A DNA stretch of 64,000 bases from Cellulosimicrobium cellulans (GTDB taxonomy: Bacteria > Actinomycetota > Actinomycetes > Actinomycetales > Cellulomonadaceae), in assembly GCF_016907755.1 (NCBI RefSeq), contig NZ_JAFBCN010000001.1, forward strand, positions 496,001 to 560,000. Direction: 5' to 3'. Positions 2,221 to 17,161 of this stretch are shown one piece after another; the stretch's first letter is position 1, and the number at the start of each line of letters is the position of its first letter. A program made the translations under genes and the position numbers. The notes under the pieces are model-generated. The model worked only from the letters and a program-made list of their open reading frames with translations, did no database searches and was not told the DNA's origin.

Positions 2221-4437
2221 TCAGGCGCAGGTCGCCGCCGCGTAGCCCGCGTCCAGCGAGGCGTCCCCGACCGCGGCGCTCGCGGCCCCGGCGTCGACCG
2301 TCGCCGCGCGCGCGGCGAACGACTGGTACGCGGAGCTCCCCGGCTGCACGCCGCTGACCGTGCGCTGCCCGTAGGGCGTGGTCAGCGTGATGTCGGCGGC
2401 CTCGTCGCCGGTGTTCTGCGCCGTGACGGCGACGTAGGGCCGCCCCGCGAGGCAGCGGGACGTCGCGCGGACCTCGAGCGCGGGGGACGCGGCACCGAGC
2501 TCGACCGTCGGACCGTCGAGCTCGACGACGGTCACGCTCGACCCCGACGTGGAGGTCCAGGTCGTGTCGGGCGTGAACGACCCGCGGTCGAGGTCGGCCC
2601 GGGTCACCACGTGGTGCGCGAACGTGCACGTGTACGACCCTTCCGCCGGCAGGGTGCGGTAGCGGCAGTTCTGGGCCGCGTTCGCGGGGTCGAGCCCGGC
2701 GAGGTTCCCGGTCGGGACCACGGAGGTCGCCGCCGTGGACAGGTTGCGCACCGTGTAGGTGAACCGCAGGACGTCGCCGACGGCGTACGCGTCCTGCGGG
2801 TTCGCGTGCGCGCCCTGCACCGCGATGTTCCCGGGCGCCCCGAAGTAGACGCCCGGCCCCTCGTGCTCGACCGTCGTCACGGTCGTACCCGACGTCGACG
2901 TCCACGTCGTGGTCGGGGCGAAGAAGCCGACGTCGAGGTCGGCCTGCGTGACCGTGTGCCGCGCGGACGTGCACGTGTAGGCCGCGCGCGCCGCGAGGTC
3001 GCGGAAGCGGCAGTTCGGCGCGCCCTGGGCGGGGTCGAACCGCTCGAGGTCCCCGGTCGGGGAGACGGTCGTGACGGCGTCGGACAGGTTCGTGACGGTG
3101 AACGCGTACGTGACGACGTCGCCGACGGCGTACCCGCCCGCGGGGGCGGTGCTCGTCACGCTCGCGCGCGTGACCTCGATGTCGCCGGGCGTGCTGCTCG
3201 GCGCGGCGAGGAGCCAGTCGTGGTCGAGCTTGGCGAACCGGATGCCGCCGCCCCCGCCGTCGGGCTCGTAGAGCAGGCCGACCGTGCCGTCGGGGAGCGT
3301 CGCGAGCGTCGAGTACGCCATGCCTCCCGGCTGGAAGACGCGCGCGACGGGCCACGTCTCGCCGTCGTCGTAGCTCATCCGGACGGTGCCGTTGACGCGG
3401 CCGGACTGCGACGCCGCGTTCGAGAAGAGGAGCACCTTGGCCTCGTCGGAGCCCTGCGGCGCGTTCGGGTACGCCCGCACGATCGCGGCGTTGTTCGTCG
3501 GGTCGGGCAGCTCGCGGTCGAGGGTCACGGCGCCGTACGTGACGCCGCCGTCGGTCGAGTAGGCCACCTTGCGGAAGCCCGAGCGCGCCGAGTCGCGCGA
3601 GTTGAGCATGACCCGCCCGTCCGAGAGCTCCACGGTCTTGTTCTCGTCCATGCCGGTGCCGACAGGGGTCCCGACCTGCCAGGTCGCGCCGTGGTCGTCG
3701 GAGTAGACGGAGACGGCCTGGAACTGCCCCGAGCCGTTGATGATCGTGTACTGCTGCACCAGGCGCCCCGCGTGCTCGCCGTAGCGGAGCTGGATGCCCT
3801 GACCCGAGGCGGCGAAGCGCGAGCGCCAGCCCAGGTCGGCCGTGACGTCCGCGGTGATGGTGCGGTGCGTCCACGTGCGCCCGTCGTCCGTCGAGGCGGA
3901 GACGTTCGCATGGATGACGTCGCGCGCGGCCGGGTCGACGCCGGGCTGGGAGCCGCCGAAGCCCTGGTCGTACGACTTCACGTGAAAGTTGAAGACGGTC
4001 CCCGTCTCGCGGTCCACGACGTAGCTCGGGTCCGAGTAGCCCTCGATCGGCGCGGTGGTCTTCCCGGCCGCGACGACCTCCTGCGGGCCCCACGTGACAC
4101 CTGCGTCGGTGGAGCGGCGCTGGAGGATCGAGTTCGGCCCGGGGGAGTCGGCCGCGGTGGGGCGGCCGTCGTAGGAGGCGAGGACGTCGCCGTTGGGCGC
4201 CACGGTGAGCGCCGGGATGCGGTAGTTGGGGAAGCCGCCCTGGCCGTTGGTCGCGAGCTGCTGCTCGGCGAACGTGCCCGGGCCACCGGTCGCGGGAGCG
4301 AGGTCGTGGTCCGGTGCGAGGGCCGTGTGGTGGGCCGCCGCCGTCGTGACGGGGACGACGGCGCCGCTCACCCCGAGCGCGAGCGCGGTGGCGAGGGTCA
4401 GCGCGCGGCGCGCGGGTCTGCGGAGGTGTCCGATCAT
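2221..4437 (-). CDS. nanH: Secreted exo-alpha-sialidase (GH33) with accessory C-terminal modules
   Basis: Releases terminal sialic acids from glycoconjugates outside the cell, feeding the nan operon at 5.7-17.9 kb. The product is 738 residues: signal peptide (about 1-36), six-bladed GH33 catalytic domain (about 48-412), two tandem repeats of about 110 residues (418-530 and 530-640) and an 83-residue C-terminal module. Seen: the RIP motif at 73-75, five Asp boxes (109-116, 182-189, 246-253, 294-301, 355-362), candidate arginine-triad members R73, R281 and R348, the tyrosine nucleophile candidate Y375 and E391. Start ATG 4437 follows GGAAGGAAC. A TTGACC/TACCTT promoter (17-bp spacer) and a perfect palindrome lie upstream. 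The C-terminal module recurs in the protein at 43.2-47.5 kb. No sortase motif was seen, so it is probably released or bound through its C-terminal modules. Confidence 0.95.
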   Translation of the reverse strand: MIGHLRRPARRALTLATALALGVSGAVVPVTTAAAHHTALAPDHDLAPATGGPGTFAEQQLATNGQGGFPNYRIPALTVAPNGDVLASYDGRPTAADSPGPNSILQRRSTDAGVTWGPQEVVAAGKTTAPIEGYSDPSYVVDRETGTVFNFHVKSYDQGFGGSQPGVDPAARDVIHANVSASTDDGRTWTHRTITADVTADLGWRSRFAASGQGIQLRYGEHAGRLVQQYTIINGSGQFQAVSVYSDDHGATWQVGTPVGTGMDENKTVELSDGRVMLNSRDSARSGFRKVAYSTDGGVTYGAVTLDRELPDPTNNAAIVRAYPNAPQGSDEAKVLLFSNAASQSGRVNGTVRMSYDDGETWPVARVFQPGGMAYSTLATLPDGTVGLLYEPDGGGGGIRFAKLDHDWLLAAPSSTPGDIEVTRASVTSTAPAGGYAVGDVVTYAFTVTNLSDAVTTVSPTGDLERFDPAQGAPNCRFRDLAARAAYTCTSARHTVTQADLDVGFFAPTTTWTSTSGTTVTTVEHEGPGVYFGAPGNIAVQGAHANPQDAYAVGDVLRFTYTVRNLSTAATSVVPTGNLAGLDPANAAQNCRYRTLPAEGSYTCTFAHHVVTRADLDRGSFTPDTTWTSTSGSSVTVVELDGPTVELGAASPALEVRATSRCLAGRPYVAVTAQNTGDEAADITLTTPYGQRTVSGVQPGSSAYQSFAARAATVDAGAASAAVGDASLDAGYAAATCA

Positions 4438-4515: not shown

Positions 4516-4568
4516 TGACGTCAGATGTCTGACGTCAGGAAGGTAGCCCGGAAGGATGGAGGGGTCAA
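4516..4568 (-). promoter_or_regulatory. nanH promoter with palindromic GntR-type operator
   Basis: Reading the minus strand, TTGACC (4568-4563) and TACCTT (4545-4540) are separated by 17 bp and make a good housekeeping promoter. Starting 3 nt after the -10 is a perfect 10+2+10 inverted repeat (4516-4537, arm TGACGTCAGA, centre TG), placed to cover the transcription start. Its sequence ACGTCAGACATC recurs upstream of the nan regulator and transporter genes at 9400-9411. Repression by the GntR protein encoded at 8603-9358 is inferred from this shared site. Confidence 0.7.
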
Positions 4569-4658
4569 GGGGTACGGCAAGGGGTACGGACATCACGACG
4601 CCCGTCGGTCGCAGGGGCTGCGGCCGGCGGGCGTCGAGGAGGGAGGTGCGGGGCGGGA

Positions 4659-5333
4659 TCAGCTCCGGCGCGCGCGCCGCGACAGGAGCACGATGGCGGC
4701 GCCCACCGCGGCGAGCCCCGCGGCGAGCGCCGCGTACAGCCCGACCGTCGCGCCGGTCTCCGCCAGGCTCGGGTTCTGCGCGGACGCGCTCACCTCGTTC
4801 GACACCGGGACGACGCCGGCCGGGTCGTCCTGCCCGGGCGGGTTCGTCGCGCAGTCGGGCGACGAGGGCGGGTAGACCGTGGTCACGAGGACGTGCGGGT
4901 TGACCTCGAAGCTCACGTCGACGGCGGGGCGGACCCAGTCGTACTCGTCGCCCTCGACCCACTCGCCGTCCTCGAGGCGCCACCCCGGCCAGTCGACACC
5001 CTTGCCCTGGTCGTCCACGACGGCGCCCGGCCACAGCAGGCGGCCCTGGAGCGGCAGCCCGGACCGGACGACGCTCTCGCCGTCGGGGTTGATCCAGGTG
5101 ACCGTCACGGTGTCGTGGTCGGTGCCCTCGACCTCGATCGCGTAGTCGAGGTACGCGGCGTCCTGCTCGCACGCCGAGACGAGCGTCGTGAGGCGCATCG
5201 ACGGCTGGGACGGCACATACGTGTCGTCCTCGGCGGCGTGGGCGGCCGGGCCGGCGAGGAGAGCGGCGGAGGCGGCGAGGGCGGCGGCTGTGGCGGCCCG
5301 CACCAGGGTGCGGCGTCCGGTCGTGGTGCTCAT
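4659..5333 (-). CDS. LAXTG-type sortase-anchored surface protein
   Basis: A 224-residue exported protein. It has an N-terminal signal peptide (cleavage near residue 34), an extracellular domain of about 150 residues with no recognised family, and a classical cell-wall sorting signal: LAETG, then a hydrophobic stretch of about 20 residues and the tail SRRARRS. LA-x-TG is the motif used by class E sortases of high-GC Gram-positives, so the protein is probably linked to peptidoglycan. No sortase gene is present in the window. The start ATG 5333 follows GACGGGAACC. It lies between nanH and nagB on the same strand, but gaps of 221 and 338 nt on either side suggest its own transcript. The folded part, rich in Trp, Asp and Glu, might be adhesive, which is speculation. 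Confidence 0.8.
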   Translation of the reverse strand: MSTTTGRRTLVRAATAAALAASAALLAGPAAHAAEDDTYVPSQPSMRLTTLVSACEQDAAYLDYAIEVEGTDHDTVTVTWINPDGESVVRSGLPLQGRLLWPGAVVDDQGKGVDWPGWRLEDGEWVEGDEYDWVRPAVDVSFEVNPHVLVTTVYPPSSPDCATNPPGQDDPAGVVPVSNEVSASAQNPSLAETGATVGLYAALAAGLAAVGAAIVLLSRRARRS

Positions 5334-5536
5334 GGTGGTTCCCGTCGGGTCGTGGTCGGTCGAGCGCGACGGGTACCGTCCTGAGGGCGCGACCGTGCCG
5401 CCGCCGGACGGGCGGTTCGGGGCAGCAAGGGCGCGGGCGTGTCGGACGCGTGAGGCGGCACCGCCGTGATCGCCGGTGCCCGCGCTGGCAGGGGGCTGAT
5501 CGCACGGGCACCGGCTGGCCCCCACGCTAGACAGGC

Positions 5537-5556
5537 AACTGGACGGCCGTCCAGTT
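5537..5556. promoter_or_regulatory. Perfect 20-bp palindrome, TetR-operator-like
   Basis: The half site AACTGGACGG is followed directly by its exact reverse complement. The ACTGGACG/CGTCCAGT layout is typical of operators bound by TetR-family repressors in actinobacteria. It lies about 200 nt upstream of the LAXTG protein start and about 115 nt past the nagB stop. No TetR-family gene is present in the window, so the regulator would act in trans. Confidence 0.55.
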
Positions 5557-5583
5557 CGATCGCGGGTGAATCCCCGCGCCGAG

Positions 5584-5601
5584 AACGACATCCGTGTCGT
5601 T
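5584..5601. promoter_or_regulatory. Short inverted repeat downstream of nagB
   Basis: AACGACA (5584-5590) and TGTCGTT (5595-5601) are perfect 7-bp arms around a 4-nt centre. The arms are much less GC-rich than the surroundings, which is unusual for a terminator here, so an operator is as likely as a weak nagB terminator. Confidence 0.35.
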
Positions 5602-5671
5602 ATCCGGTCGAAAGCGACAGCAAGGTCGTGCTCGACGCGGGGCGGGGCCGTTCTCGGGAGTCGACGACCCG

Positions 5672-6454
5672 CTAGAGGCCCTGCCAGTCCGGCTTGGACG
5701 CGTACGTCTGGCGGTAGTAGTCCCCGAGCTGCAGGCGCGAGGCCGCCGCGTCGTCGACCAGCACCGTCGCGTGCGGGTGCATCTGCATGATCGTCGCGGG
5801 CCACAGCGCCGAGATCGGGCCCTCCACGAGCTGGTGCACCGCCTCCGCCTTGCCCTTGCCCGTCGCCAGCAGCACCAGGTGCCGCGCCGACATGATCGTC
5901 GCGAGCCCCTGCGTCAGGCAGTGCCGCGGCACCCGGTCCACGTCGTCGCCGAAGAACCGCGCGTTGTCCTCACGCGTCTGCGCCGTCAACGTCTTGATCC
6001 GCGTGCGCGACGCCAGCGACGACCCCGGCTCGTTGAACGCGATGTGCCCGTCCGTCCCGATCCCCAGGATCTGCAGGTCCACACCCCCGGCCCCCGCGAT
6101 CGACTCCTCGTACGCCGCGCACGCCGCGACCAGGTCCTCGGCGTTGCCGTCCGGGCCCTGCACCGCGCCCGGGGCGAAGTCCACCCGCGAGGCGATCTCC
6201 GTCTCGATCACGTTCCGGTACCGCTCGGGGTGCTCCGCGGGCAGGCCCACGTACTCGTCGAGCATGAACGCCCGCACGCCCGCGAACGACAACCCGTCCT
6301 CACGGTGACGGCGCGCCAGCTCGTCGTACACCTTCAGCGGCGAGGAACCCGTCGCCAGCCCCAGCACCGCCTCCGGCCGCGACCGCACCACCTCCTCGAT
6401 CGCGTCCGCAGCCAGCACCGCCAACCGCTCCGCAGGAGCGATCACGACCTCCAT
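5672..6454 (-). CDS. nagB: Glucosamine-6-phosphate deaminase
   Basis: Converts glucosamine-6-phosphate to fructose-6-phosphate and ammonia, the last step of amino-sugar and sialic-acid catabolism before glycolysis. The 260-residue product has the usual family length. Seen motifs: GLATGSSP (sugar-phosphate loop), FMLDEYVGL, and GIGTDGHIAFNEPGSSL, which carries the general-base Asp and the catalytic His. The ATG at 6454 shares one base with the stop of the upstream oxidoreductase, so it is the last gene of a four-gene minus-strand operon beginning with the GntR regulator. It would receive product from NanA-NanK-NanE after deacetylation, but nagA is not in this window. Confidence 0.93.
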   Translation of the reverse strand: MEVVIAPAERLAVLAADAIEEVVRSRPEAVLGLATGSSPLKVYDELARRHREDGLSFAGVRAFMLDEYVGLPAEHPERYRNVIETEIASRVDFAPGAVQGPDGNAEDLVAACAAYEESIAGAGGVDLQILGIGTDGHIAFNEPGSSLASRTRIKTLTAQTREDNARFFGDDVDRVPRHCLTQGLATIMSARHLVLLATGKGKAEAVHQLVEGPISALWPATIMQMHPHATVLVDDAAASRLQLGDYYRQTYASKPDWQGL

Positions 6455-7536
6455 CAGACCCTCGCCTCCTCGGGCACCGTCCGGTGCTCCACCGTCACGA
6501 CGTCGCTCGCCTCGACCGAGCGGTACGCCGCGTCGATCACCGCGAGCGTCGCGCGCGCCTCCTCGATGCCGTAGTCCGGCCGCTCGCCGGCCAGGACCGC
6601 CCCGACGACGTGCCGCAGGTACGCCGCGGCGGCGACCTGCCCGGCGTCGGGGGCGAGCGTCGTGCGCCCGTCCGCCCCGTACCGCGCGACGGCGGGCGCG
6701 TCGTCGTCCCCGACCGCGTGGCCGTGCGACCCGAGCAGGCGCACGGACGACGTGGTCGGCGTGCCGCCCGGCGCGAACGGGACGCGGCCGAGCGTGACGG
6801 TCGCGGTGACGCCGCGGTCCAGCCCGAGCGTGACGACCGCCGTGTCCTCGACCCCGGCCTCGCGGTGCGGGTCGAGGAACAGCGCGCCCGTGAACGCGTG
6901 CACCTCGACCGTCCGCAGCCCGGTGAGGTGGTGTACCGCGTCGGCGCAGTAGCCGAGGAAGTTGAGCAGCTCCCCGCCTCCGGAGAGCGTGCGGTCGACC
7001 ACGAGCTCCGGCCGCTCGACCGACGTCGCGAAGTGCGACCCGGAGGCGAAGAACTCCAGGTCGAGGTGGCGCGGCAGGCCCACGTGCCCGGCGTCGACCC
7101 AGGCGCGCAGGCGGCGCAGGGCGGGCGCGTGCGTGCGGTTCACGACGGCGCACGTGCCGCCCGTGCGGGCGGCCACCGCGGCGAGGCGGTCGGCGCCGGC
7201 GAGCGTCGTCGCGACGGGCTTGTCGACGAGCACGTCGAGCCCCGCCTCCAGCAGCCCCGCCGCGAGGCGCGCGTGCCGGGTCGGCTCGGCGCACACGACG
7301 ACGAGGTCGACGGCGGATACCAGGGCCTCCGCGGCCGACGCCACGTCGGCGACCTCGGCGTACGGCAGACCGACGCTCTCGGCGACGGCGCGCGAGTCCT
7401 CGCGCACCCAGCCGGGCGCGTCCGACTCCTCGACGATGCCGACGAGCTCGACGCGGTCGTCCGCGGCGAGGATCCGCAGGTAGTCGGCCGCGTGGCGCAC
7501 CGCCGACGCGAACGCGACGCGCAGGGTCGTCCTCAC
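6454..7536 (-). CDS. Gfo/Idh/MocA-family NAD(P)-dependent oxidoreductase
   Basis: A 360-residue cytoplasmic oxidoreductase with an N-terminal Rossmann domain (starting RVAFASAVRHAADYL, so the usual GxGxxG loop is poorly conserved) and a C-terminal alpha/beta substrate domain. The EKP-type motif appears as VDKPVAT. GTG 7536 overlaps the stop of the next upstream gene by 4 nt, and the stop overlaps nagB. Family members oxidise or epimerise sugars. Known sialic-acid examples are RgNanOx of Ruminococcus gnavus and NanX/YjhC of E. coli, which convert 2,7-anhydro-Neu5Ac to Neu5Ac. A similar role here is inferred from position only. The weak glycine loop leaves cofactor binding less certain than for its neighbour. 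Confidence 0.8.
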   Translation of the reverse strand: MRTTLRVAFASAVRHAADYLRILAADDRVELVGIVEESDAPGWVREDSRAVAESVGLPYAEVADVASAAEALVSAVDLVVVCAEPTRHARLAAGLLEAGLDVLVDKPVATTLAGADRLAAVAARTGGTCAVVNRTHAPALRRLRAWVDAGHVGLPRHLDLEFFASGSHFATSVERPELVVDRTLSGGGELLNFLGYCADAVHHLTGLRTVEVHAFTGALFLDPHREAGVEDTAVVTLGLDRGVTATVTLGRVPFAPGGTPTTSSVRLLGSHGHAVGDDDAPAVARYGADGRTTLAPDAGQVAAAAYLRHVVGAVLAGERPDYGIEEARATLAVIDAAYRSVEASDVVTVEHRTVPEEARV

Positions 7537-8606
7537 GCGGCCACCTCCACCGGGGCGTACCCGGGCACGTCGGCGACGCGCTCCCGGCGACCGGAGACGA
7601 GCGAGCGCTGCGCTGCGAGCGCGGTCGCGAGGGCGGCCCTGACCTGCGGCGTGGTGACGACCGGGGTGGCGTCGCCGCGCACGACGTCGAGCCAGTGCGC
7701 GAGCTGGAGGCTCAGCGCGCCCTCGACGGACACGGGCGGCGCGGCCGTCGCGTCGGAGTGCAGGCCGTCCTCCGCGGTGGTCGAGTGCGCGAGCGTGCCC
7801 TCGGTGCCGACGAGCACCACGCGCCGCACGAGCTCCCCGCGGCGGCGCAGCGCGTAGCAGAGCTCGAGCGTCGCGAGGGCACCGGTCGCGGTGCGGAGCT
7901 GGACGTGGAACGAGTCGGGCGACTCCATCTCGGGCGAGAACGTGCGGAAGCCGCGCGCGAAGACCTCGACGGGCTCGTCGTCGAGCAGCCACGTCGCGAC
8001 GTCCATGATGTGCGTGCCGTTGTGCACGGGGTGGCCGCCCGAGAGCTCGGGGTCGAGCTGCCAGCCGCGCCACCCGCCCGGCCAGGCGTGGCCGGTGTAC
8101 CAGGAGACGTGCGCGAGCCGCGGGGTGCCGATCTCGCCGCGCCGCGCCGCCGCGGCGAGCGCCGTCACCGCGGGCTGGAACCGCACGGTCTGCCCGACGA
8201 CGAGCGTCGTGCCGCGGCTCTCCGTCGCCGCGACCATGGCGTCGAGCTGGGCCAGGGAGAGCGCGGCGGGCTTCTCGACCTGGACGTGCTTGCCCGCCTC
8301 GCCGGCGGCGATCGTCTCGCGCGCGTGGGTGGGGGTCGCGGTGACGACGTCGACCGCGTGGACGGCGTCGTCGGCGAGGGCCTCGTCGAGGGACGTCGTG
8401 GCGCGGGCGCCGGGAACGAGCGCGGCGAGCGCCCGGGTCCGGGCGAGGTCGTGCCCGACGACCCACCGCACGTCCGCGCCGGGCAGGCCGGCGAGCGCGA
8501 CGAGGTGCTCGCGGGCGAACGCGCCGATGCCGACGACGGCGATCCCGACGGGGTTCCGGGCGTGGGCCCGGGCGCCGGATAGGTCGGGGGGCAGGGTGGG
8601 CCTCAC
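7533..8606 (-). CDS. Second Gfo/Idh/MocA-family oxidoreductase of the nan operon
   Basis: A 357-residue protein with a clear Rossmann start (IAVVGIGAFAREHL), the EKP motif (VQVEKPAAL) and a C-terminal substrate domain containing GGHPVHNGTHIMDVATWLL, whose histidines sit where family members hold the catalytic His. It is encoded between the GntR regulator and the first oxidoreductase with 4-nt GTGA overlaps on both sides, so the whole unit is translationally coupled. The two oxidoreductases are clearly divergent and are not a recent duplication. A role in processing an unusual sialic acid (2,7-anhydro or 2,3-didehydro form) is an inference; a general sugar dehydrogenase cannot be excluded. Confidence 0.82.
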   Translation of the reverse strand: MRPTLPPDLSGARAHARNPVGIAVVGIGAFAREHLVALAGLPGADVRWVVGHDLARTRALAALVPGARATTSLDEALADDAVHAVDVVTATPTHARETIAAGEAGKHVQVEKPAALSLAQLDAMVAATESRGTTLVVGQTVRFQPAVTALAAAARRGEIGTPRLAHVSWYTGHAWPGGWRGWQLDPELSGGHPVHNGTHIMDVATWLLDDEPVEVFARGFRTFSPEMESPDSFHVQLRTATGALATLELCYALRRRGELVRRVVLVGTEGTLAHSTTAEDGLHSDATAAPPVSVEGALSLQLAHWLDVVRGDATPVVTTPQVRAALATALAAQRSLVSGRRERVADVPGYAPVEVAA

Positions 8607-9358
8607 GCGGTGGTCACCCCGAGGGCGCGGTCGATCGGTTCGTAGTGCGAGACGACGGCGGCGCGGAACGCCTGGACGTCGCCCGCCTCGGCGGCGTCGA
8701 GCATCTCGCCGTGCGCGCGCGCGGTCTGGTCGAGGTCGGCCGCGACGGAGATGCCGAGCTTGGGGACGACGGCGGTGTGCACGTCCCAGAACGCGGCGAC
8801 GAGCTGGCCGACGAGGGAATTGTCGAGGCGCGCGAGCAGGCCGGTGTGGAAGGCCCGGTCCTGCTTGGGGAAGCTCAGGCCGTCGGCCGCGGCGGCCACC
8901 ATCTCGTCCACGAGGGCGTGCAGGTCGGGGTTCGAGGTCCCGGCGAGGCTCGCGACGATGACGTCGGCCATGGCGAGGTCGAGCGCCTGCCGGATCTCGA
9001 CGACGTCGCGCAGCGCCCGCAGGTCGTCCCCGGGGGAGAGCACGCCGCGGAACACGAGCGCCTCGACGAGCGCGTCGAGGGACATGTTGCCCACGAACGT
9101 GCCGTGCCCGTGGCGCACCTCGACGATGTCGAGCGTCGACAGGGTGCGGATCGCCTCGCGCACGCTCGACCGGGACACGCCCAGGTGCTCGCACAGCTCG
9201 GCCTCGGTGGGCAGCGGGTCCCCGGGGCGCAGCCCCTCGCCGAGGATGAAGTCCTTGATCCGGTCGGCGGTGGTGGTGCGCCGGGGAGCGGTCGCGCCGG
9301 GTCCGCCGTCGCGGGACGCGTCGAGCGTGCTGAAGCTCCTGCGCCGTGGTGTCGCCAT
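8603..9358 (-). CDS. FadR-type GntR transcriptional regulator, probable repressor of the nan genes
   Basis: A 251-residue regulator: a winged helix-turn-helix at about residues 22-90 (PTEAELCEHLGVSRSSVREAI, then the wing at HGHGTFVG) and an all-helical FCD ligand domain. It is the first gene of the minus-strand operon and is divergent from the sialic-acid transporter. Start ATG 9358 follows GAAGGGG. A dyad at 9399-9418 lies between the divergent genes and shares ACGTCAGACATC with the nanH operator, so autoregulation plus control of transport and sialidase is likely. NanR-type GntR regulators of other bacteria use Neu5Ac or a downstream sugar phosphate as inducer; the ligand here is unknown. 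Confidence 0.88.
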   Translation of the reverse strand: MATPRRRSFSTLDASRDGGPGATAPRRTTTADRIKDFILGEGLRPGDPLPTEAELCEHLGVSRSSVREAIRTLSTLDIVEVRHGHGTFVGNMSLDALVEALVFRGVLSPGDDLRALRDVVEIRQALDLAMADVIVASLAGTSNPDLHALVDEMVAAAADGLSFPKQDRAFHTGLLARLDNSLVGQLVAAFWDVHTAVVPKLGISVAADLDQTARAHGEMLDAAEAGDVQAFRAAVVSHYEPIDRALGVTTA

Positions 9359-9398
9359 CTTGACCCCTTCGGTTTCTGGTCCTAGTGTCATGCTACAC

Positions 9399-9418
9399 AA
9401 CGTCAGACATCAGACATC
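9399..9418. promoter_or_regulatory. Operator-like dyad between the GntR gene and the transporter operon
   Basis: The left half ACGTCAGA and centre CA are identical to the nanH operator read on the minus strand; the right half TCAGACATC is a degenerate copy of TCTGACGTC. Over 19 aligned positions 17 match. TCAGACATC also occurs twice in overlap here. The site overlaps a candidate -35 of the regulator gene (-10 TAGCAT at 9395-9390, minus strand) and lies about 40 nt before the transporter start, so one site could control both directions. Confidence 0.65.
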
Positions 9419-9458: not shown

Positions 9459-11060
9459 ATGAAGCTTCACGTCAGCTCACCTCCCCGCAGGGGAGTCGCT
9501 GCGGTCGCCGCGGGCGTCGTGCTCGCGCTCGGCCTCGCGGCGTGCTCCGGCGGCGGTGCTGCGCAGGACGACCCGACCGAGGGCAGCGCCGCCCAGGGCG
9601 AGATCGACCCGGACGCCGTGATCGAGGCGGGCATCTCGTACTCCCTCTCCGGTGGCTTCGACCCGATGATCACCACCGGTGCCGTGACAGTAGCGGCCAA
9701 CTGGCACGTGTTCGAGGGACTCACCGAGCTCGACCCCGCGACGCGCGACGTGTACCCCGCGCTCGGCACCGACCTCCCGGCCCAGGTCGACGACACGCAC
9801 TACGAGGTGGACCTCCGCGAGGGCGCGGTGTTCCACGACGGCACGCCCGTCACCGTGGACGACGTCGTCTACAGCTTCGACCGCGTGCTCGACCCGGCGA
9901 ACGAGTCGCTCTACGCCGGCTTCGTCGACTTCCTCGAGTCCGTCACGCCCGTCGACGACGACACGGTCTCGATCAACCTCAAGTACCCGTTCAGCCTCGT
10001 CCCCGAGCGGCTGTCGGTCGTCAAGATCGTCCCGAAGGCGCTCGTCGAGTCCGACTACGAGGCGTTCAACGCGCTGCCCGTCGGGACCGGACCGTTCAAG
10101 ATGACCCAGGCCACGCCCGACGACAAGATCACGTTCGAGCGCTTCGACGACTACACCGGCAACCGCCCCGCGCTGGCCGCCGGCCTCGTGTGGAACCTGC
10201 TCTCCGACCCCGCCGCGCGCGTCACCGCGATGAGCTCGGGCACGGTCAGCGCGATCGAGGACGTCCCCTACATCGACGTCCCCACGCTCGAGGGCACCGT
10301 GGACGTCGAGTCCGTCCAGTCGTTCGGCACGCTGTTCATGATGTTCAACACGGACCTGCCCCCGTTCGACGACGTCCGCGTGCGCCAGGCGTTCTTCTAC
10401 GCGCTCGACATGGACAAGATCATCGACAACGGTCTGCTCGGCAACGGCGCGGCGGCCACGAGCTTCCTCCCGCAGAGCCACCCCAACTTCCACGAGGCGT
10501 CGACCGTCTACTCCTACGACCCGGAGAAGGCGAAGGACCTCCTCGCCGATGCCGGCGTGAGCGACCTGTCGATCACGCTCATGACGACCGACACCGGCTG
10601 GGTCGCGGACATCGCGCCGCTGATCAAGGAGAACCTCGACGCGATCGGCGTCGACACGACGCTCGACATCGGCCAGTCCGGCGGCCAGTACACCAAGGTC
10701 GACAACGGCGACCTCCAGGTCATGGTGGCCCCCGGCGACCCGTCGGTCTTCGGCAACGACCCCGACCTGCTCATGCGCTGGTGGTACGGCGACAACGTGT
10801 GGTCGCAGTCGCGGTACCGCTGGAACGACGACCCGAAGTTCGCCGAGCTCCAGACGATCCTCGACGCCGCCGTGCGCACGTCGGGCGACGAGCAGCAGGA
10901 GCTGTGGAACCAGGCGTTCGACCTGATCTCCGACGAGGTGCCGCTCTACCCGCTGCTGCACCGCCAGCTGCCGACCGCGTGGGACGGCTCCACGCTCTCC
11001 GGGTTCTCGCCCCTGCCGATCACCGGGCTGTCGTTCCTCGACGCCGGCCTCGTCAAGTAG
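9459..11060 (+). CDS. Family-5 ABC substrate-binding lipoprotein, probable sialic-acid binding protein
   Basis: Extracytoplasmic binding lipoprotein of the peptide/opine/nickel family (SBP_bac_5), 533 residues as usual for the family. It has a type II signal peptide with lipobox LAAC (lipidated Cys 29) and the family's typical segments (ADNWHVFEGL-like near residue 85, LPVGTGPFKM near 210). Start ATG 9459 follows AGGAGA; an ATG at 9444 is less well spaced. It heads an operon running through nanE. Family-5 ABC systems carry sialic acid in Haemophilus ducreyi (SatABCD), and the nan genes directly downstream make Neu5Ac or an anhydro form the likely ligand. A hairpin after the gene probably helps keep the binding protein in excess over the permeases. 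Confidence 0.87.
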   Translation: MKLHVSSPPRRGVAAVAAGVVLALGLAACSGGGAAQDDPTEGSAAQGEIDPDAVIEAGISYSLSGGFDPMITTGAVTVAANWHVFEGLTELDPATRDVYPALGTDLPAQVDDTHYEVDLREGAVFHDGTPVTVDDVVYSFDRVLDPANESLYAGFVDFLESVTPVDDDTVSINLKYPFSLVPERLSVVKIVPKALVESDYEAFNALPVGTGPFKMTQATPDDKITFERFDDYTGNRPALAAGLVWNLLSDPAARVTAMSSGTVSAIEDVPYIDVPTLEGTVDVESVQSFGTLFMMFNTDLPPFDDVRVRQAFFYALDMDKIIDNGLLGNGAAATSFLPQSHPNFHEASTVYSYDPEKAKDLLADAGVSDLSITLMTTDTGWVADIAPLIKENLDAIGVDTTLDIGQSGGQYTKVDNGDLQVMVAPGDPSVFGNDPDLLMRWWYGDNVWSQSRYRWNDDPKFAELQTILDAAVRTSGDEQQELWNQAFDLISDEVPLYPLLHRQLPTAWDGSTLSGFSPLPITGLSFLDAGLVK

Positions 11061-11209: not shown

Positions 11210-12166
11210 GTGAGCGCACTGCTGCGACTCGTCGGACGCCGCCTCCTGCAGCTGCCGATCATGATCCTCGGCATCACGTTCCTCGTGTTCCTCGTGATGT
11301 CGTTCTCGCAGGTCGACCCGGCGATCCAGGCCCTCGGCGAGGGCGCGTCCGTCGAGGCGCGCGAGGCGTACCGCGAGGCCAACGGCCTGAACGACCCGCT
11401 CCTCGTCCGGTACGTCGCGTTCCTCGGTGGCCTGCTGCACGGCGACCTCGGCACGTTCAGCGCCCGGCAGGTCCCCGTCGCCGACGAGGTGGCGCGCGCC
11501 CTGCCCATCACGCTGCAGCTCACGCTCATGGGCCTCGTCATCGCCGTCGTGCTCGCCCTCGTCATGGGCATCCTCGCGGCGCTCTACCGCGACCGCTGGC
11601 CCGACAAGGCGATCCGCGTCGTGTCCGTCGCGTCGCTCGCGACGCCGTCGTTCTGGCTCGCCGTGCTGCTCATCCAGGTCGTCACGCTGGGCGCCGGGTG
11701 GCTCCCCGCGAGCGGGCCGCTGCCGGACCCGTCCGAGGACCTCGGCGGCTACCTCGCCCGCATGGCGCTGCCCGCGATCGCGCTCGCGATCCCCGTCGTC
11801 GGCCAGCTCACGCGCGTCGTGCGCACGTCCGTCGTCGAGGAGCTCGACAAGGACTACGTCCGCACCGCGATCGGCGCCGGCATCCCGCGCCACGTCGTCG
11901 TCGGGCGCAACGTGCTGCGCAACGCCCTCATCACGCCGATCACGGTGCTCGGCCTGCGCGTCGGCTACCTCATCGGCGGCGCCGTCGTCATCGAGATCAT
12001 CTTCGCGCTGCCCGGCATGGGCACGCTCATCCTCAACGGCGTCACCAACAACGAGCCCAACCTCGTGCAGGGCGTGACCCTCACCGTGGCGCTCGCCTTC
12101 GTGCTCATCAACATCGTGGTCGACATGCTCTACGTGCTCGTCAACCCGCGGATCAGGACGGTGTGA
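11210..12166 (+). CDS. ABC transporter permease, DppB/OppB type
   Basis: Inner-membrane permease of the family-5 importer, 318 residues with six predicted helices. The N-terminal signature RRLLQLPIMILGITFLVFLVM is typical of DppB-type permeases, and the EAA loop for ATPase contact lies at about residues 210-235 (VRTAIGAGIPRHVVVGRN). Start GTG 11210 follows GGGAGG. The fused permease-ATPase gene begins 1 nt after its stop. It forms the channel together with that gene's permease half. Confidence 0.88.
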   Translation: MSALLRLVGRRLLQLPIMILGITFLVFLVMSFSQVDPAIQALGEGASVEAREAYREANGLNDPLLVRYVAFLGGLLHGDLGTFSARQVPVADEVARALPITLQLTLMGLVIAVVLALVMGILAALYRDRWPDKAIRVVSVASLATPSFWLAVLLIQVVTLGAGWLPASGPLPDPSEDLGGYLARMALPAIALAIPVVGQLTRVVRTSVVEELDKDYVRTAIGAGIPRHVVVGRNVLRNALITPITVLGLRVGYLIGGAVVIEIIFALPGMGTLILNGVTNNEPNLVQGVTLTVALAFVLINIVVDMLYVLVNPRIRTV

Positions 12167-12167
12167 C

Positions 12168-14273
12168 GTGCGCCGACAGCTCACCGAACGACTCTCGACC
12201 CCCGGGCTGCGCCTGCGCGCGCTGCCCCTCGGGTCCAAGATCTCCCTGGCCTTCGTGCTCCTCGTGGCGCTCGCGGCCGTCTTCGCGCCGCTCGTGACGA
12301 GCCACGGCCCGCTCGCGACCGGCACGCCCGTGCAGCCCCCGAGCGCCGAGAACTGGTTCGGCACCGACCGCCAGGGCCGCGACATCTTCTCCCGCGTCGT
12401 CTACGGCGCGCGGTACTCGCTCGTCATCGGCCTCGGGGCGACGGCGATCGCGCTCGCCGCGGCGGCGGTGCTCGGCTCGGTCGCCGCGACCGCGCGCAAG
12501 AGCGTCTCCGAGACCCTGATGCGTGTCCTCGACATCATCATGTCCTTCCCCGGCATCGCGCTGGCCGCCGTGTTCGTCTCGGTCTTCGGCCGCTCGCTGC
12601 CGGTGCTCGTCCTGACGATCGCGTTCCTGTACACGCCGCAGCTCACGCGCGTCGTGCGGGCCAACATCCTCGACCAGTACGGCGAGGACTACGTCGCGGC
12701 CACCCGGGTCATGGGGGCGCGCACCGCGTGGGTCCTCGCCAAGCACGTCGCGCGCAACTGCGCGGCGCCCGTGCTCGTGTTCACCACGGTGCTCGTGGCC
12801 GACGCGATCGTCTTCGAGGCGTCGCTGTCGTTCATCCAGGCGGGCGTGCCCGACCCGGAGCCCTCGTGGGGCAACATCATCGCCGCGGGCCGCGACCTCG
12901 TCATGGGCGGCTACTGGTGGGCGACGTTCTTCCCCGGCCTCGCGATCATGCTCACGGTCCTGTGCCTGAACATCCTGTCCGAGGGCATGACCGACGCGAT
13001 GGTCGCCGCCCCGCGGGCCACCCGCGCGACGCCCGCCAAGGCCGTCGCGACGGACTCGGACGACGCCGCGGTGGCGGCCGAGCTCACGGCCATGGACGCC
13101 GACGAGCCGGTCGAGACCGCGGACGAGGACCGGCTCGTCGAGTCGGAGCCGGTCGTGCGGGACGTCGAGCCGGACGTCCGCCACGTCGGTCGCGAGGTCC
13201 CGCTCGCCGCGCGTCTCGCGACCCTGCGCGCGGCAGAGGCGGCGCGCTCCGACCGCCCCGCGTACGACGGTGACGCCGCACCCCTGCTCGAGGTGCGGGA
13301 CCTGTCGATCCGCTTCCCCGCGCGCCACGGCGACGTCGCGGTCGTCGACGACGTCTCGTTCTCGGTCCGCCCGGGCGAGACGATGGCCCTGGTCGGCGAG
13401 TCCGGCTGCGGCAAGTCGATCACGTCGCTCGCGATCATGGGCCTGCTCGACGCGTCCGCCGAGATCAGCGGGGAGATCCGCTACGCGGGCAAGGACCTGC
13501 TCGCGATGGGCAACCGCGAGCGCGCGTCGCTCCGCGGTACCGAGATCGCGATGATCTACCAGGACGCGCTGAGCTCGCTCAACCCGTCGATGCTCATCCG
13601 GTCGCAGATGAAGCAGCTCACGCGCCGCGGTGGCACGCGCACGGCCGAGGAGCTCCTCGAGCTCGTAGGCCTCGACCCGCAGCGCACGCTCAAGAGCTAC
13701 CCGCACGAGCTGTCCGGCGGGCAGCGCCAGCGCGTGCTCATCGCCATGGCGCTCACGCGCGACCCGAAGCTGGTCATCGCGGACGAGCCGACGACGGCGC
13801 TCGACGTCACCGTCCAGGCCCAGGTCGTCGCGCTGCTCGACGAGCTGCGCCAGAAGCTCGGCTTCGCGATGGTCTTCGTCAGCCACGACCTCGCCCTCGT
13901 CGCCGAGATCGCGCACCGCATCACGGTCATGTACGCGGGGCAGGTCGTGGAGCAGGCGCCGACGAGCGCGCTGCTCGCCGACCCCCGCCACGAGTACACG
14001 CAGGGCCTGCTCGGCGCGGTGCTCTCGATCGAGCAGCGCTCGACGCGCCTGCACCAGATCCCCGGCACCGTCCCGTCGCCGCGCGACTTCCCGACCGGCG
14101 ACCGGTTCGCGCCGCGCTCGTCGCGGCCCGACCGCGGCCTGGACGTGCGTCCCGTGCTGCGTGCGGTGGACGCCGACGGGCAGCACCTCGTCGCGACGCC
14201 GCCGGAGGAACCGGCCGACGCCACGGCGGGCGGCCGCGCCGCCGCCCCGATCACCACCGGAGGGACGCGATGA
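12168..14273 (+). CDS. Fused ABC permease (DppC type) and ATPase (DppD type)
   Basis: A single 701-residue protein joins two normally separate subunits. Residues about 1-285 are a DppC-type permease: N-terminal helix, NWFGTDRQGRDIFSRVVYGAR motif region, and EAA loop DYVAATRVMGARTAWVLAKH. Residues about 286-370 form a hydrophilic, acidic, Ala-rich linker. Residues about 373-630 are an ATPase with Walker A GESGCGKS (near 410), signature LSGGQRQR (near 514), Walker B LVIADEPT and the H-loop VFVSHD. The C-terminal oligopeptide-family tail is present. No stop, start or frame change is seen at the joint, so the fusion appears genuine. GTG 12168 lies 1 nt after the dppB-type gene. The second ATPase gene overlaps its end by ATGA. 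Confidence 0.88.
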   Translation: MRRQLTERLSTPGLRLRALPLGSKISLAFVLLVALAAVFAPLVTSHGPLATGTPVQPPSAENWFGTDRQGRDIFSRVVYGARYSLVIGLGATAIALAAAAVLGSVAATARKSVSETLMRVLDIIMSFPGIALAAVFVSVFGRSLPVLVLTIAFLYTPQLTRVVRANILDQYGEDYVAATRVMGARTAWVLAKHVARNCAAPVLVFTTVLVADAIVFEASLSFIQAGVPDPEPSWGNIIAAGRDLVMGGYWWATFFPGLAIMLTVLCLNILSEGMTDAMVAAPRATRATPAKAVATDSDDAAVAAELTAMDADEPVETADEDRLVESEPVVRDVEPDVRHVGREVPLAARLATLRAAEAARSDRPAYDGDAAPLLEVRDLSIRFPARHGDVAVVDDVSFSVRPGETMALVGESGCGKSITSLAIMGLLDASAEISGEIRYAGKDLLAMGNRERASLRGTEIAMIYQDALSSLNPSMLIRSQMKQLTRRGGTRTAEELLELVGLDPQRTLKSYPHELSGGQRQRVLIAMALTRDPKLVIADEPTTALDVTVQAQVVALLDELRQKLGFAMVFVSHDLALVAEIAHRITVMYAGQVVEQAPTSALLADPRHEYTQGLLGAVLSIEQRSTRLHQIPGTVPSPRDFPTGDRFAPRSSRPDRGLDVRPVLRAVDADGQHLVATPPEEPADATAGGRAAAPITTGGTR

Positions 14274-15112
14274 GCGCCACCGACCAGACCTCGTCCGCCG
14301 CGGGCGGGACGACCACGGCGGACCGCGACACACCCGTCGTCGAGCTGCGGGGCGTCCACGTCGTCTTCAAGGCCCGCACGGGCAGTCTCTTCAAGGCCCA
14401 GCGCGTGCACGCGGTGAACGACGTGAGCGTCGCGGTTCGCCGCGGCAGCACGCTCGGGATCGTCGGCGAGTCCGGGTCGGGCAAGTCGACCATGGCGAAG
14501 GTGCTCGTCGGGCTGCAGGCGCCGACGTCGGGCGAGATCCGCTTCCGCGGGCAGCCGGTGGACAAGTACACGACGCGTGTGCGGCGCGACGTCGGGCGGG
14601 TCGTGTCCGTCGTCTTCCAGGACCCGGCCACCGCGCTGAACGCCCGCATGCGCGTGCGGGACGCGCTGCGCGACCCGCTCGACGTGCACCGCGTGGGCGA
14701 CGCCGCGTCGCGCGCGGCGCGCGTCCGCGAGCTCGTGCACCTGGTCGGCCTGCCCGAGCCGGCGCTCGACGCGCTGCCCGGGCAGCTCTCCGGCGGGCAG
14801 CGCCAGCGCGTCGCCATCGCGCGCGCCCTCGCGCTCGCGCCGGACGTGATCGTCGCCGACGAGCCCACGTCCGCGCTCGACGTGTCCGTGCGCGCCCAGA
14901 TCCTCAACCTGCTCGCCGACCTCAAGGCCGAGCTCGACCTGGGGATGGTCTTCATCTCGCACGACATCCAGACCGTGCGCCACGTCTCCGACGAGATCGT
15001 CGTCATGCAGGGCGGTCGCATCGTCGAGTCGGGCCCGGCCGCGCGCGTGCTCGACGACCCGCAGGACGACTACACCCGCACGCTGCTCGCCGCGGCGCCC
15101 GCGCTGCTGTGA
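14270..15112 (+). CDS. ABC transporter ATPase, DppF/OppF type
   Basis: A 280-residue cytoplasmic ATPase with Walker A GESGSGKST (near residue 66), Q-loop VFQDP, signature LSGGQRQR, Walker B VIVADEPTSALD and H-loop FISHD. It pairs with the ATPase half of the fusion protein to energise import. It starts within the fusion gene's stop (ATGA overlap). It is shorter than many DppF proteins and lacks a long C-terminal extension. nanA follows after 83 nt, so the transcript very likely continues. Confidence 0.9.
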   Translation: MSATDQTSSAAGGTTTADRDTPVVELRGVHVVFKARTGSLFKAQRVHAVNDVSVAVRRGSTLGIVGESGSGKSTMAKVLVGLQAPTSGEIRFRGQPVDKYTTRVRRDVGRVVSVVFQDPATALNARMRVRDALRDPLDVHRVGDAASRAARVRELVHLVGLPEPALDALPGQLSGGQRQRVAIARALALAPDVIVADEPTSALDVSVRAQILNLLADLKAELDLGMVFISHDIQTVRHVSDEIVVMQGGRIVESGPAARVLDDPQDDYTRTLLAAAPALL

Positions 15113-15195: not shown

Positions 15196-16122
15196 GTGAC
15201 CACCCCCTCCTTCCACGGGATCGTCCCGCCCGTCCTCACCCCCTTCACGACCGACGGGGAGGTCGACGTCGCGTCCCTCGAGCGCCTCGTGGACCACCTC
15301 GTCACCGAGGGCGTGCACGGCGTCTTCGTGCTCGGGTCGACCGGCGAGGTCGCCTACCTCACCGACGCGCAGCGGGACCTCGTCGTGCGCACGGTCGTGC
15401 GCGCGGCCGACGGCCGCGTCCCGGTCCTGGCCGGCGCGATCGACCTCACGACGGCGAGGGTCGTCGAGCAGGCCCGTGCGCTCGTGGCCGGAGGGGTGGA
15501 CGCCGTCGTCGTGACCGCGCCCGTCTACGCGCTCAACGACCTCGACGAGATCGAGCGCCACCTGCGCGCCGTCGCGGCCGCGGTGGACGTGCCGCTCTTC
15601 GCCTACGACATCCCGGTGCGCGTGCGCACCAAGCTCCCGGCCGACCTGCTCGTGCGCCTCGGCGTCGAGGGCGTCCTCGCGGGCGTCAAGGACTCGTCCG
15701 GCGACGACGTCGCGTTCCGCCGGCTCGTCGCGGCGAACGCGGCCGCGGGATCGCCCCTCGCGCTGTTCACGGGGCACGAGGTCGTCGTCGACGGGATGCT
15801 GCTGCTCGGCGCCGACGGCGTCGTCCCCGGCCTCGGGAACGTGGACGCCGCGGGCTACGTGCGCCTGTGGGACCTCGCGCGGGCGGGCAAGTGGGACGAT
15901 GCGCGGGTGGAGCAGGACCGTCTCGCCGCACTCTTCGAGATCGTGTTCCAGGCACGCGGCCGCTCGGGCGACGCCGCGGGCGTCGGCGCGTTCAAGGTCG
16001 CCGTGCAGCGCCAGGGTCTCATCGACACCGCCACCATGGCGTTCCCGGTCGAGGCGCTCGACGGCGAGGTCGCCGACCGCGTCGAGGAGATCACGCGCGC
16101 CGCGGGGCTCCTGCGTGCGTGA
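15196..16122 (+). CDS. nanA: N-acetylneuraminate lyase (DapA/NAL family)
   Basis: Aldolase cleaving Neu5Ac to N-acetylmannosamine and pyruvate. The 308-residue TIM-barrel product shows the family hallmarks: VLGSTGEVAYL (GSTGE carboxylate loop), the catalytic tyrosine in FAYDIP (Y137) and the Schiff-base lysine in GVKDSSGD (K165). Dihydrodipicolinate synthase and other DapA paralogues share these, so the assignment to sialic acid rests on nanK and nanE overlapping or following it and on nanH nearby. GTG 15196 follows GGAGC. The next gene begins 8 nt inside its 3' end. Confidence 0.88.
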   Translation: MTTPSFHGIVPPVLTPFTTDGEVDVASLERLVDHLVTEGVHGVFVLGSTGEVAYLTDAQRDLVVRTVVRAADGRVPVLAGAIDLTTARVVEQARALVAGGVDAVVVTAPVYALNDLDEIERHLRAVAAAVDVPLFAYDIPVRVRTKLPADLLVRLGVEGVLAGVKDSSGDDVAFRRLVAANAAAGSPLALFTGHEVVVDGMLLLGADGVVPGLGNVDAAGYVRLWDLARAGKWDDARVEQDRLAALFEIVFQARGRSGDAAGVGAFKVAVQRQGLIDTATMAFPVEALDGEVADRVEEITRAAGLLRA

Positions 16123-17161
16123 CGTCGTCGTCGGGGTCGACCTCGGCGGGACCAAGACGGCGGCGGCGTCCGTCGCGCCCGACGGTGCGCTCGGGCCGGT
16201 GCGCTCGGTGCCGACCCCGGCGGCCGCCGGTCCGGAGGCGGTGCTCGACGCCGTCGCCGGGCTCGTGCGCGAGGTCGTGGCCGCCGCCGGGTCGCCCGAC
16301 GGTGGTCCCGCCCGGCTGCGCGCGCTCGGCGTGGGCACGGCCGGGGTGGTCGACGTCGGTCGCGGCGTGATCGTCTCGGCCACCGACACCCTGCCCGGCT
16401 GGCCCGGGACCGACGTCGCGGGCGGGCTGCGTCGTCGGCTCGCCTCCGGCGGCGCCACCCCGCTCGGGGCCGAGCGTCCGCTGCCCGTGTTCGTCGAGAA
16501 CGACGTCGACGCGCACGCGGCCGGCGAGGTCTGGCTCGGCGCGGCGGCCGGGGCGCGCAGCGCGCTGCTCGTCGCGGTCGGGACCGGCGTGGGGGCCGCC
16601 GTGGTGCTCGACGGGCGTCCCCTGCGCGGGGCGCACCACGTCGCCGGGGAGCTGGGCCACATGCCGGTCCCCGGGGCGGAGCTGCTGCGCTGCCCGTGCG
16701 GCCGGACCGGCCACCTCGAGGCGATCGGCGCGGGACCGGCGATCCACCGCCGCTATCTCGCTCTCGGCGGCGACGCGGCGAGCCCGGACACGCGCGACGT
16801 CGTCGCACGGGCGGGTGCGGGCGAGGAGCTGGCGGCGACGGTCGTGCGCGACGCGGCCCAGGCGGTGGGCCGCGCGGTCGCGGGAGTCGTGACCGTGCTC
16901 GACCCGGAGGTCGTCGTGGTCGGCGGCGGGCTGGCAGGAGCGGGAGACCTGTGGTGGTCGGCGCTGGAGGGCGCGCTGCGCGCGGAGGTCGTCGACGTGC
17001 TCGCCGACCTGCCGCTGCGCCGTGCGGCGCTCGGCAACGAGGCGGCGATCGTCGGGGCGGCGCGCGGAGCGTGGAGCCTCGCCGGCCTGCCCGCCGACGA
17101 ACCCGGGGCGAGATCCGGCGTGCCGCGCGAGGAGACCCACCGAGAGAGGACGACGGCATGA
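16115..17161 (+). CDS. nanK: N-acetylmannosamine kinase (ROK family)
   Basis: Phosphorylates ManNAc to ManNAc-6-phosphate with ATP. The 348-residue ROK kinase begins with the phosphate loop VDLGGTKTA and carries the catalytic-Asp segment VFVENDVDAHAAGE. The ROK zinc motif, normally C-x-C-G-x2-G-C-x-E, reads CPCGRTGHLEA, so the third Cys is replaced by His; GELGHMPV supplies the upstream His. A Cys2-His2 site could still bind zinc. GTG 16115 overlaps nanA by 8 nt, and the stop overlaps nanE by ATGA, so all three are coupled. ROK proteins also include glucokinases; the flanking genes decide for NanK. It has no N-terminal DNA-binding domain. Confidence 0.88.
   Translation: MRDVVVGVDLGGTKTAAASVAPDGALGPVRSVPTPAAAGPEAVLDAVAGLVREVVAAAGSPDGGPARLRALGVGTAGVVDVGRGVIVSATDTLPGWPGTDVAGGLRRRLASGGATPLGAERPLPVFVENDVDAHAAGEVWLGAAAGARSALLVAVGTGVGAAVVLDGRPLRGAHHVAGELGHMPVPGAELLRCPCGRTGHLEAIGAGPAIHRRYLALGGDAASPDTRDVVARAGAGEELAATVVRDAAQAVGRAVAGVVTVLDPEVVVVGGGLAGAGDLWWSALEGALRAEVVDVLADLPLRRAALGNEAAIVGAARGAWSLAGLPADEPGARSGVPREETHRERTTA

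Follow-up and report, generated by a model that had tools for sequence, protein, structure and literature searches.

NanR regulators of the nan genes are known from Escherichia coli, Bifidobacterium, and Corynebacterium glutamicum. In E. coli, NanR combines a GntR winged helix-turn-helix (wHTH) with an FCD domain and represses the sialic-acid genes from a short tandem repeat, (GGTATA)3, downstream of the polymerase site (PMC8012715). In Bifidobacterium, by description, one regulator responsive to N-acetylneuraminic acid (Neu5Ac) governs the nan genes and a gene there named nanH (PMC4746261), while in C. glutamicum the GntR-family NanR, cg2936, is encoded near nag genes, and its deletion derepresses nagA and nagB (PMC4974736). 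Operators of the FadR subfamily follow a GT-N3-AC pattern, some with extra half-boxes 7–12 nt from the center (PMC4494728), and a COG2186 (fadR-type) regulator gene is present in 226 of 234 nan clusters of the Actinomycetia (PMC8754123). The present study suggests that a 64,000-nucleotide stretch of the Cellulosimicrobium cellulans genome (the window) carries a sialic-acid switch of this general kind with an operator of a different build. Specifically, a GntR/FCD protein encoded at 8603–9358 is very probably the sialic-acid repressor of the genus, which would act through predicted operators at 4516–4537 and 9400–9418 and thereby block two promoters, those of the sialidase gene nanH and of a transporter–nanAKE operon.

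The regulator shares with E. coli NanR its domain composition, the metal ligands, the arginine that pairs with the sialic-acid carboxylate, and a short tandem-repeat operator downstream of the polymerase site (PMC8012715). It differs in that the operator is built from abutting RT-CWG-AY boxes with a 7-bp step, rather than (GGTATA)3, and in that its predicted regulon takes in an extracellular sialidase; at 24% overall identity and 65.8 bits, against a cut-off of 260 for NCBIfam NF003011, a classification as an E. coli-type NanR was rejected. With the C. glutamicum protein it has in common the GntR family, the proximity to nag genes, and the actinobacterial host (PMC4974736), and the joint control of nan genes and a nanH resembles what is described for Bifidobacterium (PMC4746261). 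Each box has the GT-N3-AC geometry of FadR-subfamily operators (PMC4494728); unlike those operators, two full boxes abut here and share an AYRT junction, and extra boxes keep a 7-bp register.

The site ahead of nanH (operator 1) is an exact 10+2+10 palindrome, TGACGTCAGA-TG-TCTGACGTCA, just past the nanH −10 element, as the original prediction had it. The second site (operator 2) reads ACGTCAGACATCAGACATC; the two hold ACGTCAGACATC in common and are identical at 17 of 19 aligned positions, which confirms the likeness noted at the outset. Its placement between gntR and the transporter operon also stands, but its earlier description as a dyad does not, two abutting boxes giving the better fit. 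When the complete 4.79-Mb genome was scored by pattern search, the joint motif at up to two mismatches matched operators 1 and 2 only, and a third mismatch admitted 3 further weak matches; scattered copies at unrelated places, the outcome named as speaking against the proposal, were thus looked for genome-wide and not found at up to two mismatches. The palindrome by itself was dropped as evidence, because the window contains 6 perfect palindromes with 10-bp arms (spacer 0–4) against a mean of 4.35 in 20 dinucleotide shuffles, which is the level of chance. The evidence for the operators rests on conservation, not on palindromy.

Of 221 family genomes, 32 encode an orthologue of the GntR protein. 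Exact copies of the pattern CRTCAGACRTCWGAYRTC are present in 27 of these 32 genomes and in none of the 189 that lack the orthologue; at up to one mismatch the counts are 29/32 and 10/189, and the reversed pattern, used as a control, gave 3/221. A nanH-type sialidase was found in 21/32 and 0/189, respectively. Fisher tests were applied to the co-occurrence, with values that overstate independence because the genomes are kin. Moreover, in a class-wide sample of 394 genomes in which matches to the GntR profile were split by score, all 11 matches of at least 235 bits outside the window have the core at up to two mismatches in the surrounding locus, whereas none of the 15 more distant matches (206 bits or below) has a core better than four mismatches. 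The score gap coincides with the presence of the site, which ties the site to this orthologue. It could be argued that the sites serve another regulator, such as a paralogous GntR protein, and that the neighboring gntR is merely linked to them: the genome contains 10 GntR matches altogether, and 7-bp arrays of a similar kind accompany more distant GntR proteins elsewhere. However, the exact sites follow this orthologue among the family genomes, and the division at the score gap does so across the class, which makes such a substitution very unlikely.

Within the family, the operator precedes 14 of 14 close nanH orthologues outside Oerskovia (L138–L151, 69–100% identity), a count that leaves out six Oerskovia-like genes and the paralogues L159–L167. 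Among the paralogues, a site at 2 mismatches precedes L160, L159 is the later copy of a tandem Promicromonospora pair, L164 lies at a contig edge, as does the Oerskovia-like L156, and the others have no site. In genome G134, taken to be Isoptericola cucumis, a second sialidase gene lies on a separate contig, 80 bp downstream of a site with 2 mismatches.

Beyond the family, footprinting covered 80 named loci around the GntR gene (1.53 Mb in all, with the reversed sequence as control), which reach Brevibacterium, Georgenia, Microbacterium, Leifsonia, Subtercola, Nocardioides, Saccharopolyspora, and others, as well as Devosia and bins from metagenomes that carry the label Pseudomonadota. With one mismatch at most, the core AYRTCWGAYRTCWGAYRT gave 106 matches, against 0 in the control. 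Upstream of individual genes (between −300 and +60 bp of the estimated start, with two mismatches at most, omitting gene matches aligned from after residue 140 or with upstream sequence running off the locus), the core was found for gntR in 77/80 cases, nanH in 19/28, ox1 in 2/17, nagB in 1/33, and nanA in 1/79. The nine nanH genes that have no site of their own all lie downstream of a cluster headed by an operator and run in its direction. The Promicromonospora gene is the second of two tandem copies, and in Oerskovia a single nanH comes after nanE; in Microbacterium and relatives nanE and a DUF4862-like gene precede nanH in four cases, and in Leifsonia a tatA–tatC pair, itself standing behind the operator, does so in three. 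Judged by strand and spacing, these clusters would be operons that include nanH, and the nine genes fit a model in which the operator is shared. In addition, the core stands ahead of genes for a sodium:solute symporter (Brevibacterium, upstream of nanA), an MFS transporter (Frondihabitans, upstream of a second nanA), an SBP_bac_1 protein (Georgenia, in a locus containing nanA), and an AXE1-family esterase (Agromyces). That the same operator stands before unrelated transporters is an argument that sialic acid, rather than the history of one protein, is what it responds to.

The position of the operators is that expected of a repressor. In the window, both follow closely on a −10 element (Table 1), and the core of operator 2 lies over or just past the expected +1. 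The −35/−10/operator layout of nanH is repeated in 11 of the 14 family nanH loci, and that of the transporter promoter is kept in related loci within L007–L057; across the genus and near relatives the operator starts 4–12 bp past the −10 element, although the spacers diverge (promoters were listed where they passed the filter TTGNCN/TANNNT with a 16–18 bp spacer, which L149–L151 fail). A repressor bound just downstream of the −10 element would cover the transcription start and block RNA polymerase. Some GntR proteins both activate and repress, and E. coli nanR carries the annotation of a dual regulator, so that the protein might instead activate from these sites. However, at both promoters, as in near relatives, the operators lie past the −10 element and on or immediately behind the expected +1, which is the geometry of repression, and we give activation very little credence.

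Comparison of the sites suggests what has been conserved within them. In both window sites and across the relatives the operator reads AY-[RTCWGAY][RTCWGAY]-RT, two abutting 7-bp FadR-type boxes that share the AYRT tetramer. Letter statistics rest on 62 unique genus/core sites, of which 30 are exact. Of the 30 exact sites, 15 have complementary W letters and 15 do not, and the center is the palindromic tetramer ACGT in 5 and the non-palindromic ATGT or ACAT in 25, so that global palindromy is not what is conserved. An extra heptad in register accompanies 7 of 71 unique sites (from 98 merged sites), compared with 1.2 on average and 4 at most when 39 other offsets were tried; a looser count of extra boxes (40/98 arrays) was discarded, since four already matching bases enter its test a second time. 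A competing explanation is that a single GntR dimer occupies the whole 20-bp site as one long palindrome, with no separate boxes and no second dimer. The outer halves do mirror each other in preferring AC to AT (54 of 60), and the Devosia-type and nanH sites are palindromic, but neither the W letters nor the center show the complementarity that such a site would call for, and the further boxes fall in exact 7-bp register. We consider the long palindrome unlikely, though a serious contender; as read from the aligned sites, the conserved unit is a tandem of 7-bp FadR-type boxes. Arrays of at least three boxes occur at L099 (10770–10794), L109 (766–790), and L128 (9879–9903), before nanH (Nocardioides, Microbacterium) and gntR/sbp (Microbacterium Leaf159).

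The gntR product matches PF00392 at 72.3 bits (cut-off 27) and PF07729 at 55.7 bits (cut-off 24.3), which places it in the FadR/FCD subfamily of the GntR family. The FCD metal ligands D167, H171, H216, and H238 are retained and are invariant in A1 and A2 (H216 was matched to NanR H222 by motif, the alignment having a gap there), and R123 aligns with NanR R128, the arginine that pairs with the Neu5Ac carboxylate. About 27 residues precede the wHTH, compared with the 32-residue N-terminal extension that drives cooperativity in E. coli NanR. Retention of the four metal ligands and R123 favors Neu5Ac, which is probably the inducer. A downstream phosphosugar, N-acetylmannosamine-6-phosphate (ManNAc-6-P) or N-acetylglucosamine-6-phosphate (GlcNAc-6-P), might take this role instead, given that the RpiR-type NanR of pneumococcus binds ManNAc-6-P (PMC12713135) and that nagB is part of the regulated string. 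Against this stand the retained metal site and arginine of the FCD domain, together with the response of the E. coli (PMC8012715) and Bifidobacterium (PMC4746261) NanR proteins to Neu5Ac, and we regard a phosphosugar inducer as doubtful.

Collectively, footprinting, co-occurrence in the 221 genomes, and promoter geometry strongly support the predicted control by this GntR protein of nanH, of its own operon, and of the transporter–nanAKE operon, the conservation of the sites being what this control is read from; that the protein binds these sites and represses from them, that Neu5Ac is its effector, and that each box takes one dimer is what we infer. In the absence of inducer, the repressor would sit on operators 1 and 2 and cover the transcription starts of the nanH and transporter promoters, blocking RNA polymerase, and the operator in the divergon would probably also regulate gntR itself together with ox1, ox2, and nagB. 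Basal NanH would free sialic acid outside the cell, and the ABC transporter with the SBP_bac_5 solute-binding protein would import it. The imported sialic acid, most likely Neu5Ac, would then bind the metal-containing FCD pocket and cause the repressor to leave the DNA, such that sialidase, uptake, and catabolism are switched on together.

Several observations weigh against this proposal. Matches at up to one mismatch are more frequent in genomes without the orthologue than in the reversed control, and weak matches are therefore not diagnostic. Oerskovia-like nanH genes have their own operator in 0 of the 6 cases with upstream sequence (L152–L155, L157, L158), and 2 of the 80 gntR loci are without a site even at up to three mismatches. 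The operator suggested at nagA did not materialize: the stretch upstream of the only nagA-like gene, itself below the family cut-off, contains none. At its low identity to E. coli NanR, the window protein matches the Neu5Ac pocket in part only. Finally, the Sanguibacter orthologue (L097) has an array with a 7-bp step but different spacer bases, ACAT-ACG-ACGT-ATG-ATGT.

The recognition helix of this Sanguibacter orthologue reads SRTSVREAIK, compared with SRSSVREA in most others, and distant relatives with an SRNS helix have ladders with GGG, AGG, or CCC at a step of 7. Exact AYRT triples at a step of 7 lie ahead of 5 of the 15 distant relatives, and triples at steps of 5, 6, 8, or 9 ahead of none. 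Together these data allow a broader model, which we advance tentatively and with more doubt than confidence: a branch of FCD regulators would use three to five AYRT tetramers placed every 7 bp, with one dimer per box, with three-base spacers that set specificity and vary along with recognition-helix residue 64 (Ser64 with CWG, Thr64 in Sanguibacter with CRT, and Asn64 in the distant relatives with GGG/AGG/CCC), and with an origin separate from that of the E. coli operator. The covariation of residue 64 and spacer is a lead, not a test. If this is true, then repression could be tuned by box number, and this would be a second tandem-repeat sialic-acid operator, arisen separately from that of E. 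coli NanR. Near distant GntR relatives in large (Streptomyces-sized) genomes, AYRT ladders rich in G and stepped at 7 bp are also seen, at L182 (1427), L190 (2231–2262), and L191 (2289); those of L182 and L191 adjoin a divergent lipoprotein-like gene, and L190 has five AYRT units running.

The genes of the locus are listed in Table 1. On the minus strand gntR, ox1, ox2, and nagB form a string with overlapping or abutting ends, and nanH lies farther along with its own promoter, while the plus-strand genes run from sbp through the transporter genes to nanA, nanK, and nanE. Autoregulation of gntR together with nagB had been proposed, without mention of ox1 and ox2; related nagB genes rarely have a site of their own. 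By its position, nagB is reached through the gntR-ox1-ox2-nagB string and not from its own operator.

Table 1. Predicted features of the sialic-acid locus in the window
Feature	Position	Strand	Basis or remark
nanH, secreted exo-sialidase (BNR propeller)	2221–4437	−	Pfam BNR_2; structures 1eur/1eut, E about 1e-178
Predicted operator 1, ahead of nanH	4516–4537	.	TG-AC[GTCAGAC][ATCTGAC]GT-CA (minus-strand reading); two abutting FadR-type boxes, also perfect 10+2+10 palindrome
nanH promoter	4540–4568	−	−35 TTGACC (4563–4568), 17-bp spacer, −10 TACCTT (4540–4545); operator core starts 4 bp downstream
nagB, glucosamine-6-phosphate deaminase	5672–6454	−	NCBIfam TIGR00502 above cut-off; abuts ox2
ox2, second Gfo/Idh/MocA oxidoreductase	6454–7536	−	Family match; overlaps ox1
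ox1, Gfo/Idh/MocA oxidoreductase	7533–8606	−	Family match; start overlaps gntR stop (GTGA)
gntR, GntR wHTH + FCD regulator, proposed repressor	8603–9358	−	GntR and FCD Pfam models exceed cut-off; NanR and other GntR-family structures matched by profile
Transporter-operon promoter	9360–9388	+	−35 TTGACC (9360–9365), 17-bp spacer, −10 TAGTGT (9383–9388); operator core starts 11 bp downstream
Predicted operator 2, gntR/transporter divergon	9400–9418	+	AC[GTCAGAC][ATCAGAC]ATC; two abutting FadR-type boxes
sbp, solute-binding protein, SBP_bac_5 family (Opp/Dpp-type ABC transporter)	9459–11060	+	Family match
ABC permease 1	11210–12166	+	Open reading frame; orthologue adjoins sbp in most related loci
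ABC permease 2 fused to ATPase	12168–14273	+	Open reading frame; relatives of similar length
ABC ATPase 2	14270–15112	+	Family match
nanA-like aldolase, start uncertain	15223–16122	+	Pfam DHDPS
nanK-like ROK kinase, start uncertain	16121–17161	+	Family match
nanE, N-acetylmannosamine-6-phosphate epimerase	17155–17874	+	NCBIfam NF002231 above cut-off; Pfam NanE

The permease 2–ATPase fusion is a single reading frame of 701 residues that is kept in many relatives. The closest solved relative of NanH, represented by 1eur and 1eut, is the hydrolytic sialidase of Micromonospora viridifaciens. NanH is far nearer to 1eur (E 6e-178) than to the anhydrosialidase 4x47 (E 6e-15), and an intramolecular trans-sialidase activity, which would tie ox1 to 2,7-anhydro-Neu5Ac, is therefore not favored. 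ox1 and ox2 sit between gntR and nagB, and a relative of ox1 with upstream sequence is found in 17 related loci. The ox1 product matches 6z3b/6z3c (RgNanOx) and the YjhC structures weakly, behind other Gfo/Idh/MocA enzymes; it is a candidate sialic-acid accessory enzyme for which no function is claimed.

Several related loci add further genes. In Leifsonia the tatA–tatC pair runs into nanH at L100 (17549–18724), L101 (11983–13158), and L104 (15525–16727), and its place behind the operator suggests that the pair is co-regulated and dedicated to twin-arginine export of the sialidase. AXE1-family esterase genes in nan loci, directly behind the operator in Agromyces (L136, 10728–11744) and also present at L100 (14167–15123), L101 (10639–11640), and L104 (14194–15150), are candidates for the removal of O-acetyl groups from sialic acid. 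The GntR–transporter cluster, mostly with the operator, appears in L122, L124, L130, and L134 and in the bins L098, L114, L118, and L123, records labelled Devosia, Paracoccus, Amaricoccus, or Pseudomonadota, which suggests either inter-phylum transfer or mislabelled bins. The nan locus of L061, titled Sphaerisporangium cinnabarinum ATCC 31213, has 86–98% protein identity to that of the window genome, and this record is probably mislabelled.

What appears to be new is the operator of abutting boxes. The operator was not found in the literature covered, PMC6271061 and PMC8749437 included; a Journal of Bacteriology study of C. glutamicum NanR may contain a related motif. The words "operator" and "binding site" are absent from the main text of the survey of actinomycete nan clusters (PMC8754123). 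Most actinobacterial nan clusters have a fadR-type gene, and in this literature an operator for such a gene was likewise not found, nor was an operator sequence for the Bifidobacterium or the C. glutamicum NanR in the passages covered of PMC4746261 and PMC4974736. The consensus is valid across many genera and reaches records labelled Devosia, and it can be used for regulon calling in all of them. It points to a link with sialic acid for the AXE1 esterase, the tatA–tatC pair, and the two oxidoreductases, none of them connected with it here before, and the 7-bp ladder of boxes provides a testable case for stepwise multi-dimer binding by FCD regulators. Furthermore, for Oerskovia paurometabola the induction of a sialidase by sialic acid and by fetuin has been published (PMC9782813), and the operator offers an explanation for the inducible sialidase of the soil actinomycetes that are used as enzyme producers.

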